Below are positions 46,356 through 50,213 of a stretch of DNA of 64,000 bases, piece by piece; positions within the stretch are counted from its first letter, which is position 1; each line of letters starts with the position of its first letter. Both the position numbers and the translations under genes were made by a program. The notes beneath the pieces were generated by a model. It saw only the letters and a program-made list of their open reading frames with translations. It searched no databases and was not told the DNA's origin. This stretch comes from Thiomicrorhabdus sediminis (GTDB taxonomy: Bacteria; Pseudomonadota; Gammaproteobacteria; Thiomicrospirales; Thiomicrospiraceae): contig NZ_CP040602.1 in assembly GCF_005885815.1 (NCBI RefSeq), positions 1,069,630-1,133,629 on the forward strand. The letters run 5' to 3'.

Positions 46356-47978
46356 GTGTCTACGTTTTTTTCGTTTGCCCGTTTTAAGACATTGTTGTCG
46401 TTGAGCCTGCTGCTGTGGTTGGCATGGTCGACCCATGCCTATGCACAAGTCTCTACAGAGGCGCCAACAATCGACTGGCAGCTTTACAGTATCGATGACA
46501 ATCAACGCTTTAATGAAGATTACCCTGAAGGCGTTCAATACTTGCCCAAGGCCGATAATATCTCTTTGGTGGGTGGGCACTATCTGTATGCCGGTGACTT
46601 CAGTGTCGATAAAGCCGGATACTATGTCATCGACTTTAAAAACACCTCTGCCATCGATTGGTTTGTACTCTATCTTTATGACTCGCAAAACACCTTGATC
46701 GCGAAAGCCGAAGGCGGCATAGGTAACGATGCCGACAATCCTTTTTTTATGCGACATGGGCGCAAGTTCGATTTGCCGGCAGGGCAGTATCAGTTGATAG
46801 CGGAAGTCAATTCTCCATACTATATCGCCCAACCTGAACCATATATCAATCGTCTCGATGCTTATCAAAAGCAGATTCGCCTGGGCGATGCGATTGTCTT
46901 GATCGGCATCGGTATTTTTCTGGCAATGGGCATTTATTATGGCGCTTTGTCTTTTGTCAGCTCACGCAAGACCGAAATTTTTTATGCGTTGTTTATCTTT
47001 TCCAATCTGTTATTTAATTCTGGCGCGCATTTGCTTTTGTCCCAGGTTTTCGGCTGGCACAATTTCTACCTGGTGTCGTTTCCCATCCTGATATCCAACC
47101 TCATTTATATTCTGTTTGTGATGCGCCTGCTGGAAATCCATCAAGCGAAAAACAAGCGCCTTTATCATTTAGGCAATGGCGCACTGGCCTTATTGGCGCT
47201 GTTTGCACTTTACGGCATGCTTAACCCGAACTGGATTAACGAGATGGCGCGTTTCGGTGTTTGGGTGTTTTTATTGTATGGCTTGATTGCCGGGATAGGC
47301 CGTTCCATGCAGGGCAGTGTCGTGGCACGTTTATATCTGGTGGCTTTGAGCGCATTTATTGGTCTGGCGAGCATGGCCACCATTCCGACCACTTTGAGTT
47401 CGAATAGCATTAATGTCGAACACTATGGTTTAGCCGCCATTGCGGTGGAAATCGTCTTGTTGGCGCTGGTGTTGACCTATCAGGTCGGCGAGTTATATCG
47501 CGAGCGCATGAATATATTATTACGTTTGGATCGTAGTAAAAAGATGGCGCATACCGATGCGGCCACACAAATCCCCAACCGTTATGCATTGGAAATCGCT
47601 TTGGCGTCATTTGATCAGCACTCGTCGTTGATCTATATCGATATGGATAATCTCAAATATTACAATGACCGTTACGGCCACGCCAAGGGCGATGAAATGC
47701 TTGCCATGTTTGCCAAGCTGATGCTTAAAGGCTTGGGCAATAACGGCTGTATTTATCGTGTCGGTGGTGATGAATTCGCCGTGACTTGTCCGGATGGTAA
47801 TGTAACCCGGGTGGAATTGTTGATCACGAGGGTGATCGAACAGATGCAGGAGGGCGGTTTTAAGGATGCTGGCGCCAGTTATGGGGTCGCCTATATGCAT
47901 GAGGTCGCCAATACCTCGGATCTAAAGCATCTTGCAGATTTGCGGATGTATGAACGCAAACAGCAGCGCCAGAACTGA
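46356..47978 (+). CDS. Diguanylate cyclase with 7TMR-DISM sensor
   Basis: 540 residues. A signal-like hydrophobic N-terminus (to about residue 33, THAYAQ) precedes a periplasmic 7TMR-DISMED2 domain (about 40-165, with ...GDFSVDKAGYYVIDF), seven membrane helices (about 175-380) and a GGDEF domain (IDMDNLKYYNDRYGHAKGDEML, active loop RVGGDEF). The inhibitory RxxD site is absent (GNNGCIYRVGG). It should produce c-di-GMP in response to an extracellular carbohydrate-like or other ligand. The start is GTG 46356 with an AAAGGA site. The rhodanese gene follows 182 bases later. Confidence 0.9.
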   Translation: MSTFFSFARFKTLLSLSLLLWLAWSTHAYAQVSTEAPTIDWQLYSIDDNQRFNEDYPEGVQYLPKADNISLVGGHYLYAGDFSVDKAGYYVIDFKNTSAIDWFVLYLYDSQNTLIAKAEGGIGNDADNPFFMRHGRKFDLPAGQYQLIAEVNSPYYIAQPEPYINRLDAYQKQIRLGDAIVLIGIGIFLAMGIYYGALSFVSSRKTEIFYALFIFSNLLFNSGAHLLLSQVFGWHNFYLVSFPILISNLIYILFVMRLLEIHQAKNKRLYHLGNGALALLALFALYGMLNPNWINEMARFGVWVFLLYGLIAGIGRSMQGSVVARLYLVALSAFIGLASMATIPTTLSSNSINVEHYGLAAIAVEIVLLALVLTYQVGELYRERMNILLRLDRSKKMAHTDAATQIPNRYALEIALASFDQHSSLIYIDMDNLKYYNDRYGHAKGDEMLAMFAKLMLKGLGNNGCIYRVGGDEFAVTCPDGNVTRVELLITRVIEQMQEGGFKDAGASYGVAYMHEVANTSDLKHLADLRMYERKQQRQN

Positions 47979-48160: not shown

Positions 48161-48820
48161 ATGTGCAGTAAATCCAACAAACTTTACCTAGTCATCCTTT
48201 CTCTGTTGTTCTCTATTCCTGCTTTTGCTTCAGAAGAACTCGAGGTTAAAATCACCGATAAACTTGCCCAGCTTGAGGTGATCCATAATGGTAAGCCTGT
48301 GGTGATTCAGCGTAATCAAGATCAGGGCAATATGATTGACGAGGACTTCGCCTTGACTTCACGCGCCTGTCCGCCATTTTGCTTACAGCCGATGAATTTG
48401 CTACCGGGGGTCAAGACCATCGGTGAGTTGGAGCTGCTCGAATTGCTCGAGAAAAAAGCCAAAGGTGATAAATCGATTCTTGTTATCGATTCACGCACTC
48501 CAGACTGGGTCGCCAAAGGTACCATACCGAGTGCGATTAATATTCCTTGGACAAAACTGTTTCCTCAGGCGGAGTCCTATGAGCCGTTTGAAGTCGAGGG
48601 GATTTTATCACTGCAGTTCGGTGCGACACTGGCGGATAACATCTGGGATTTTTCCAATGCCAAAACACTGGTCATGTTCTGTAACGGTCCATGGTGCGGC
48701 CAATCGCCAACCAATATCAAAGCGTTGGTGAATTTGGGTTATCCGGCACATAAAATCTTCTGGTATCGAGGCGGTATGCAGGCATGGCAGGCCGCCGGCT
48801 TGACCACTGTGGCTCCGTAA
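48161..48820 (+). CDS. Periplasmic rhodanese-domain protein
   Basis: 219 residues with a Sec signal peptide (to about ASA/FASE at 23-25). The mature N-terminus holds a CPPFC motif (RACPPFCLQPM), unusual for rhodaneses and suggestive of a redox Cys pair. The rhodanese domain (about 100-219) has the active loop CNGPWCGQS with catalytic Cys174 and the ending WYRGGMQAWQAAGL. A second Cys in the loop (WC) could allow persulphide transfer. It sits 36 bases before a thioredoxin-fusion gene, so both are likely one unit handling periplasmic sulfur or thiols. Confidence 0.85.
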   Translation: MCSKSNKLYLVILSLLFSIPAFASEELEVKITDKLAQLEVIHNGKPVVIQRNQDQGNMIDEDFALTSRACPPFCLQPMNLLPGVKTIGELELLELLEKKAKGDKSILVIDSRTPDWVAKGTIPSAINIPWTKLFPQAESYEPFEVEGILSLQFGATLADNIWDFSNAKTLVMFCNGPWCGQSPTNIKALVNLGYPAHKIFWYRGGMQAWQAAGLTTVAP

Positions 48821-48856
48821 AATAATAAAATAACTGTTGTAGAAGGACATGAACAG

Positions 48857-50119
48857 GTGAAAAGCTGGATTGGCTTATGTTGGGCTTTCTTGTTTTCGCT
48901 GCAGGCAAATGCGGCGGAAAGTCTTGTTTTGCCAATTGAAAGCGGCGAAGAAGTCGCGGTAAATATCTATCCACCGACCTTTTCCGATTCTGAAAAACCT
49001 TTACTGATTTGGTTCACCGAGGGGTATGCGCATCGCAAAACCTTTAAAGAGCAACTTACCCGTTTTAATGATGTCGGTTATGAAATCTGGCAGGTCGATC
49101 TGTTGGAGTCCTATTTTCTTGAACGTACTCCGGTCAATATCCGAGGCTTGAGTGGTGCCGGGGTCGCTGCGGTTTTGGTATATGCCAATCAAACGGATCG
49201 CCCCTTTGTGGTCATCAGTTCGGGGCGCATGAATCTTGCGATGTTCCGCGGGGTGCGTCTATGGCAGCTGGAACATCAGCCGGATAGAGGTATCGGCAAA
49301 CTTCAACAGGTGCTGAGTTTCTTTCCCAATATCTATGATGTGGCGAAAAAAGCCGGTGATACTCCAGAGTTGTTTCCTATCGTATCGGCCAGCAGTTTAC
49401 CGATCACCATTATCCAGCCGACAGAAGGTGCCTTTAAATGGAAATTAGCGGAAACCATTACGGCATTGGAAAAACATCACAGTCAAGTCGCTCTGGTGGC
49501 GGTTGCCAATGCACGAGATTGGTATTTCGTCAAAAACGACGGTACCGAGCTGGAACGAAAGGCAGCCAATGATATAGCCGATTTACTCGCCATCTGGCTC
49601 AAGGCCGGAAAAGTTAGCGAGGATAGGGTCTTTGTACCGGTTGAGAAATTGGCCAGCAAGCAGGCCACTGTCCGAGCCAAAGGCTTGGTTGAAGTGAGAG
49701 CAAGGCCATCGCTGGATTTCGCATTGAAAGATATCAATGGCAAGGCGGTGCAGTTCAAAGACAAGCAGGGCAAGGTGATCTTGCTCAATTTCTGGGCGAG
49801 TTGGTGCGGCCCCTGTGTCAAAGAGATTCCATCAATGAACCGTTTGGCGCAATCATTTTCGGAAGATAAGTTTGAAATCGTTTCGCTCAATTTCAGAGAA
49901 ACACCGCAAACCATTAAAGACTTTATGCAACAGGTGCAGGTCGATTTTCCGGTATTGATGGATTTGGATGGCAAGGTATCGGATGCTTATCAAATCTTTG
50001 CTTTCCCGAGTTCCTTTTTGCTCGATGCCAAAGGTAATATCCGCTATTCGGTGAATACCGCAATAGAGTGGGATGAAGCCGAGGTGAAGGCGGTCATTGA
50101 AGCGTTGATTGAAGATTAA
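48857..50119 (+). CDS. Exported fusion of an alpha/beta hydrolase-like domain and a TlpA-like thioredoxin
   Basis: 420 residues. A signal peptide (to about NAA at 20) is followed by a hydrolase-like region (about 30-270: LLIWFTEGYAHRKTF, VDLLESYF, FVVISSGRMNLAMFRG) in which the usual GxSxG nucleophile is not clear; SSGRMN takes its place. The C-terminal domain (about 285-420) is TlpA/ResA-like, with WCGPC at 316-320 and a cis-Pro in FAFPSSF. It may reduce disulphides in the periplasm. The GTG start at 48857 is preceded by a GGA and AGG stretch. It is directly downstream of the rhodanese gene. Confidence 0.8.
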   Translation: MKSWIGLCWAFLFSLQANAAESLVLPIESGEEVAVNIYPPTFSDSEKPLLIWFTEGYAHRKTFKEQLTRFNDVGYEIWQVDLLESYFLERTPVNIRGLSGAGVAAVLVYANQTDRPFVVISSGRMNLAMFRGVRLWQLEHQPDRGIGKLQQVLSFFPNIYDVAKKAGDTPELFPIVSASSLPITIIQPTEGAFKWKLAETITALEKHHSQVALVAVANARDWYFVKNDGTELERKAANDIADLLAIWLKAGKVSEDRVFVPVEKLASKQATVRAKGLVEVRARPSLDFALKDINGKAVQFKDKQGKVILLNFWASWCGPCVKEIPSMNRLAQSFSEDKFEIVSLNFRETPQTIKDFMQQVQVDFPVLMDLDGKVSDAYQIFAFPSSFLLDAKGNIRYSVNTAIEWDEAEVKAVIEALIED

Positions 50120-50192: not shown

Positions 50193-50213
50193 AAAAGCCG
50201 AGTTAGGCTTTTT
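50193..50213 (+). terminator. Terminator after the thioredoxin-fusion gene
   Basis: AAAAGCC-GAGTTA-GGCTTTT, ending in a T run. Confidence 0.8.

Follow-up and report, generated by a model that had tools for sequence, protein, structure and literature searches.

The window, the whole 64,000-nucleotide stretch of Thiomicrorhabdus sediminis DNA analyzed here, encodes an exported protein in which a predicted alpha/beta-hydrolase-fold domain, judged by its family alignment to have lost the catalytic triad, is joined to a TlpA-type thioredoxin. The family of this fusion protein is found almost only in soxB-bearing genomes, and we therefore consider it a candidate for a missing part of the Sox pathway. 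The module is widespread, nearly coincides with soxB in Gammaproteobacteria, and has a first half for which neither Pfam nor NCBIfam offers a dedicated model. It is a concrete, testable candidate for Sox thiol upkeep in gammaproteobacterial sulfur oxidizers, and its N-terminal domain is a case of the alpha/beta-hydrolase fold re-used without catalytic residues.

A sequence-only reading of this DNA had paired the fusion with the rhodanese encoded just upstream. The sulfur context that it proposed is supported, and the fusion family itself is a more interesting item than the pair. We tentatively favor a reading, in our estimate a little short of evenly balanced, in which the rhodanese and the fusion are two separate periplasmic thiol proteins that serve Sox-type thiosulfate/sulfide oxidation, each at its own step, with no dedicated relay between them.

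A predicted hydrolase fold without its triad, tied to a thioredoxin

The two genes lie 36 bp apart in a complete genome of 2.37 Mb, and have the following features:

48161..48820, +, exported rhodanese of the CPPFC/CNGxWC family, SoxL-like, 219 aa
48161..48229, +, rhodanese Sec signal peptide, residues 1-23, AFA/S, read by eye
48368..48382, +, CPPFC motif of the N-terminal extension, residues 70-74
48680..48697, +, active-site loop CNGPWC, residues 174-179, with a second invariant Cys
48857..50119, +, exported fusion of a hydrolase-like domain and a TlpA-type thioredoxin, 420 aa, GTG start
48857..48913, +, fusion Sec signal peptide, residues 1-19, ANA/A, read by eye
48914..49690, +, alpha/beta-hydrolase-fold domain lacking the catalytic triad, residues 20-278
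49217..49228, +, SSGR at the former nucleophile elbow, residues 121-124, neither Ser nor Cys conserved, R124 in 44/58 rows
49415..49417, +, Q187, former acid position at the end of strand 7, Q in 56/58 rows
49514..49519, +, R220-D221, where the former His would follow strand 8, D in 57/58 and R220 in 46/58 rows
49706..50116, +, TlpA/ResA-type thioredoxin domain, residues 284-420
49805..49816, +, redox-active CGPC (C317, C320)
50193..50212, +, possible terminator hairpin 3' of the fusion, weak (z -1.5)

These ORFs, domains and motifs bear out the earlier description of a rhodanese, with CPPFC and a second cysteine in its loop, beside an exported hydrolase-TlpA fusion carrying WCGPC. The frame downstream of the fusion encodes what we take, from its sequence, to be a methyl-accepting chemotaxis protein.

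The fusion begins with a signal peptide that by eye ends ...LQANA/A. Its C-terminal half matches the AhpC-TSA/TlpA domain at E 5e-26, and WCGPC falls at residues 316-320. With 91.5 bits against PF00578 (cut-off 26), a CxxC motif and the signal peptide, the fusion belongs among exported AhpC-TSA/Redoxin-domain proteins. By sequence, the nearest solved structures are ResA and other TlpA-like reductases (C-terminal half versus ResA 1st9, E 2e-26). The ResA/TlpA thiol:disulfide oxidoreductases share the domain family and WCxxC with the fusion but lack its N-terminal domain, and the fusion falls below the curated cut-offs for ResA (NF002854, 117.9 of 170 bits), TlpA (NF047696, 77.6 of 230) and DsbE (TIGR00385, 59.4 of 123).

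Searched by sequence against Pfam, NCBIfam and PDB, the N-terminal part of the fusion gave matches at chance level only, and this held when all 28 members were compared with Pfam and a profile was compared with PDB; a scan of the genome contigs with the N-domain alone returned no match. The predicted model (pLDDT 87.9) nevertheless shows this part as a canonical eight-stranded alpha/beta-hydrolase with the canonical strand order. A Foldseek search with this model returned 1228 matches at E 0.001 or better (best E 2.5e-11), and the best structural alignment of the hydrolase-like domain covers 210 residues at Z 17.1 and rmsd 3.5.

We placed the triad positions by strand order, with the elbow at residues 121-124, the acid at ~187 and the histidine at ~220. 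Across 58 aligned relatives, position 123 is G in 30, D in 15, N in 7, E in 5 and S in 1, and the alignment contains neither a GxSxG nucleophile nor a conserved His after strand 8; the earlier remark that the hydrolase-like part lacks a clear GxSxG thus describes a real, family-wide property. Judged from these rows, the catalytic triad is lost. Dienelactone hydrolase, esterases and other alpha/beta-hydrolases have the same fold, with eight strands in canonical order, whereas the fusion domain has neither their triad nor a sequence match to them.

Other strongly conserved positions are W78, D81, G132, P157, G167 and P182. Residues D81, R124, Q187, R220 and D221 may form a new set of conserved polar residues in place of the active site, their meeting in space being deduced from topology and not from atomic coordinates. 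Such a set could belong to an enzyme that still works with an unusual site, for example on thioesters, S-sulfocysteine or polythionates, the thioredoxin then reducing the product. D81, Q187 and R220-D221, at or close to the former active site, and the canonical strand order are in keeping with this idea, and the constant tie to the thioredoxin described below would fit a two-step reaction; the elbow, however, has no conserved Ser, Cys or Asp, no conserved His follows strand 8, and we regard continued catalysis as highly doubtful. The hydrolase-fold domain would most likely serve as a docking or ligand-binding adaptor.

The thioredoxin lies in frame behind the hydrolase-like domain in all 29 aligned order-level frames (L060 was left out). 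Of 30 class-level loci, 29 have WCxxC in frame; the window gene and a few genomes are common to both sets. At class level, 89 of 99 domain matches fall in open frames at least 400 aa long, those frames that were not opened being presumed fused from length alone. The other 10 frames are shorter. Behind eight of these, tblastn found a whole TlpA gene with CxxC directly following on the same strand, and the remaining two (L305, L307) have a TlpA remnant at a broken frame end. Since the tie is constant, whether by fusion or as neighboring genes, the hydrolase-like domain and the thioredoxin seem to be one working unit. In one genome (G109, L113:1303-2724), the domain and the TlpA thioredoxin are two neighboring genes, the second with its own signal-peptide-like start.

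Link of the fusion and rhodanese families to Sox

We searched one set of 369 gammaproteobacterial genomes for all families, counting soxB at E below 1e-100 (150 genomes, 148 over the model cut-off), dsrA at E below 1e-80 (116 genomes, 111 over cut-off) and RuBisCO in 176 genomes, after dropping weak ones from the 187 over cut-off. The fusion family is present in 77 of the 369 genomes, and 71 of these 77 carry soxB (31.3 expected, odds ratio 32). These counts treat genomes as independent, a weakness that the family-level count, in which 38 of the 40 GTDB families with the fusion contain soxB, softens but does not remove. The rhodanese family is found in 93 of the 369 genomes, with soxB in 76 (38 expected). 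Conservation in sulfur oxidizers, which the sequence-only reading had named as a check on the pair, holds for each family singly (71/77 and 76/93).

In a joint regression for the fusion, soxB predicts it strongly (LR 29, p 6e-8), RuBisCO less so (LR 9.5, p 0.002), and dsrA (LR 1.3, p 0.26) and the rhodanese (LR 1.5, p 0.22) not significantly. We rejected reverse Dsr, rather than Sox, as the driver of the fusion on this dsrA result. Six genomes have the fusion and no soxB: G108, G118, G267, G297, G318 and G395. The genome of G108 is 100% complete and is a true exception. Completeness is 84% for G118, 55% for G297 and 75% for G395, and weaker matches to soxB in G118 and G395 may come from partial genes; G318 (98% complete) and G267 (87%) lack soxB and have dsrA matches. 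At 20 class-level fusion loci, the shared neighbors covered by a family scan were hemF, HD-domain, bile-acid-symporter-type and rubredoxin-reductase-like genes, which are not sulfur genes.

TlpA/ResA-type thiol reductases have many other targets, for example cytochrome c and copper sites. The fusion might be a general periplasmic disulfide reductase of respiring autotrophs, acting in cytochrome c or cupredoxin maturation, with the soxB link a matter of lifestyle. Its nearest structures by sequence, ResA and TlpA-like reductases, are compatible with such a role, and RuBisCO also predicts the fusion. The soxB effect nevertheless stays strong with RuBisCO in the model, the fusion is found in just 1 of 47 genomes with RuBisCO but without soxB and dsrA, and it scores below the curated ResA, TlpA and DsbE cut-offs; we judge a general role unlikely and return to the reading of two separate Sox-serving proteins.

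The host genome contains soxB and RuBisCO by the same search and no dsrA over cut-off, so the host is probably an autotroph with a Sox pathway. Its soxB (at 1565551) lies ~450 kb from the rhodanese (at 1117790), and we found no sox genes near either window gene when the adjoining frames were read by eye and the genome was searched for soxB. The genome has a single DsbD_TM gene.

Upkeep of the cysteines on periplasmic Sox carriers is known mainly from the alphaproteobacterial proteins SoxS, SoxV and SoxW; SoxS is described as reducing false mixed disulfides on SoxYZ, with SoxYZ as the proposed target (PMC10451225). SoxS and SoxW are, like the fusion, periplasmic CxxC reductases linked to Sox. 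The fusion, unlike them, has a hydrolase-fold domain, lies outside a sox cluster and is gammaproteobacterial, and we liken it to them by description and not by sequence. Our search of the literature covered open-licence papers in PMC, which leaves absence unproven, and within it no paper dealt with a hydrolase-TlpA fusion tied to Sox.

We infer every arrow of the scheme that follows, including the periplasmic place of both proteins, their targets, the direction of electron and sulfur flow, and the role of the hydrolase-like part. The fusion would act as a thiol:disulfide reductase whose CGPC draws its reducing power from the cytoplasm by way of the single DsbD-type transporter. This CGPC could reduce wrong disulfides or leftover persulfides on Sox thiols, for example those of SoxY or the rhodanese, and the fusion would then do the job done elsewhere by SoxS/SoxW, by analogy with the alphaproteobacterial SoxS model (PMC10451225). 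A further proposal, possible though we lean against it, is that the module (dead hydrolase domain plus TlpA, fused or as neighboring genes) is the gammaproteobacterial Sox maintenance reductase, its fold having become a pocket for docking or for a sulfane ligand, which would bring the CxxC to SoxYZ or a SoxL-like rhodanese and so replace SoxS/SoxW.

Co-occurrence and gene order of the two families

The rhodanese and the fusion coincide in 42 of the 369 genomes, against 19.4 expected. Among the 150 soxB genomes both are present in 40, with 36 expected (p 0.20), among genomes with both soxB and RuBisCO in 37 (34.4 expected), and at family level in 25 (21 expected). Because there is no excess co-occurrence among soxB genomes, both families follow the Sox way of life and not each other. 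Of the periplasmic sulfur-handling pair that had been proposed, the periplasmic look and the tie to sulfur oxidizers are supported and the mutual pairing is not. Neither outcome named in advance as counting against that pair, homologs that never co-occur or a cytosolic location of one protein, appeared.

In the 62 genomes of the order, a rhodanese homolog (E 1e-15 or better) is present in 29 and a close one (over 300 bits) in 22; a close fusion is present in 13, and both in seven. The close rhodanese is thus without a close fusion in 15 of 22 genomes, and the close fusion without a close rhodanese in 6 of 13. Among the seven genomes that have both, G000, G026 and G031 carry the genes side by side, and the distance is ~2 kb in G041, ~5.7 kb in G028 and ~200 kb in G024; in G022 the close orthologs lie on different contigs, and the rhodanese adjoins a diverged paralog of the fusion. 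For genomes of 2.5 Mb this clustering looks like more than chance, but it is loose.

The 36-bp gap in the window suggests co-transcription there. The corresponding gaps are ~220 bp in G026 and 291 bp in G031, and by eye the intergenic regions of both contain an inverted repeat, CGTTT...AAACGGG, with T behind it (weak when folded, G031 only); pattern scans for a terminator between the genes in G031 and G026 reported none. With these wider gaps and the possible terminator, there is no clear conservation of a common transcript. The idea that the two genes form an operon throughout the genus was not borne out.

The sequence-only reading had the pair pass sulfane sulfur from the rhodanese to the thioredoxin. 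Such a direct handover, after which the thioredoxin would free sulfide or pass the sulfur on, can draw on the short gap in the window, the adjacency in G026 and G031, the 2-6 kb spacing in G041 and G028, the diverged fusion paralog beside the rhodanese of G022, and the Sox link of both families. It is opposed by the lack of excess co-occurrence, both in soxB genomes and by family, by the close partners missing in 15 of 22 and 6 of 13 genomes of the order, and by the inverted repeat and T between the genes in G031 and G026. In the regression the rhodanese adds nothing to soxB (LR 1.5), which leaves the handover unsupported, and we consider it quite unlikely. Two separate proteins within Sox remain our preferred reading, under which the rhodanese has a step of its own.

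The rhodanese subfamily and SoxL

The window rhodanese has one domain, PF00581 (E 4.5e-13, over cut-off), behind a signal peptide that by eye ends ...FSIPAFA/S. The CPPFC cysteines and the loop cysteines (C174, C179) are invariant in 30 of 30 chosen family members, rows that were picked as CPPFC carriers, so that the invariance of CPPFC there is by selection. A second alignment (A2), whose 29 order-level rows were not picked by motif and take in diverged paralogs without CPPFC, likewise has both loop cysteines in every row (L030, which has a frame break, is not among them). A wider set has CNGxxC in 147 of 147 rows, CPPFC in 140 and CLPFC in 1, a census that is not independent, as 80 underlying loci were fetched with patterns containing the motifs. 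Since it is kept across the rows of the family, CPPFC, together with the second loop cysteine of CNGPWC, is a hallmark of a wide gammaproteobacterial subfamily and not an extra in the window protein. In the predicted model, residues 53-71 have pLDDT under 50 and CPPFC is not placed. The best matches and same-clade named loci of the window rhodanese are from Thiomicrorhabdus, Thiomicrospira and Halothiobacillaceae.

PQQ_CXXCW proteins (TIGR03865) are, judging from the family name, also rhodanese-like with a second loop Cys. This model matches 29 of 30 rhodanese family members weakly, and the window rhodanese scores 25 bits against its cut-off of 128. Adjacent tandem rhodanese paralogs occur at L033 (G023), L035 (G047) and G383:C1:1379012-1380214; the tandem copies examined, those of G023 and G047, lack CPPFC and keep CNGxxC. 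A shorter rhodanese group (L036, L037) lacks CPPFC, with only one Cys close to the corresponding position, and has the loop CNGPxCPQ.

SoxL of Allochromatium vinosum, encoded in a soxXAKL cluster, is a periplasmic rhodanese proposed to take sulfane sulfur from SoxY (PMC3368242, PMC5573963). The window rhodanese resembles it as a probably periplasmic protein of a Sox-tied family with a single rhodanese domain, export being judged from a signal peptide read by eye; the likeness is drawn from setting and description. In G063 and G422, a family member lies within the run soxC-D-X-Y-Z-A-SAXB-rhodanese-soxB. For G063, curated NCBIfam models identify C, X, Y, Z, A and B above their cut-offs, SAXB reaches 70.5 of 95 bits and so stays below its own, and for SoxD, a cytochrome, there is no SoxD model. 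Sox genes also lie close to members in G273 and G277 and at loci L257, L259 and L268, and by coordinates a member shares a short contig with soxB in G223 and G158. Sox genes were seen at 7 of 100 rhodanese loci (L149-L168 and L189-L268).

Family members inside sox operons share SoxL's kind of place, after soxA and a SAXB-like gene; the window rhodanese, unlike SoxL, is not encoded with soxXAK or soxB. It is 52-55% identical over its full length to the sox-linked proteins of G063, G422 and G273. In a tree of the 147 rows, the sox-linked rows are scattered, requiring six changes, and the supported 27-row clade with the window rhodanese contains none of them. We therefore call the window rhodanese SoxL-like and do not claim identity with SoxL itself. 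SoxL membership by synteny was rejected for the window clade, which has no sox-linked row among its 27.

As a SoxL-like sulfurtransferase, the rhodanese would carry a persulfide on C174 that C179 could resolve. The CPPFC pair, given four conserved cysteines, may form a second dithiol/disulfide that accepts an oxidizing equivalent or sulfur.

The sox run of G063 is followed by a 468-aa gene (L162:10818-12221) that matches methanethiol oxidase MtoX over cut-off, and by clustering the same MtoX-like gene follows the run in G422 (L165). At the window locus, a family scan identified the protein encoded upstream of the rhodanese as 7TMR-DISM/GGDEF. GGDEF genes (46356-47978, +, in the window; L071, L072 and L077) adjoin the rhodanese or lie close to it in G000, G026, G031 and G049, four genomes of the genus, the neighborhood in G031 being known by clustering only. 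They possibly represent a sulfur-linked c-di-GMP signal. Some of these GGDEF genes are also adjoined by a gene for a family-3 solute-binding protein.
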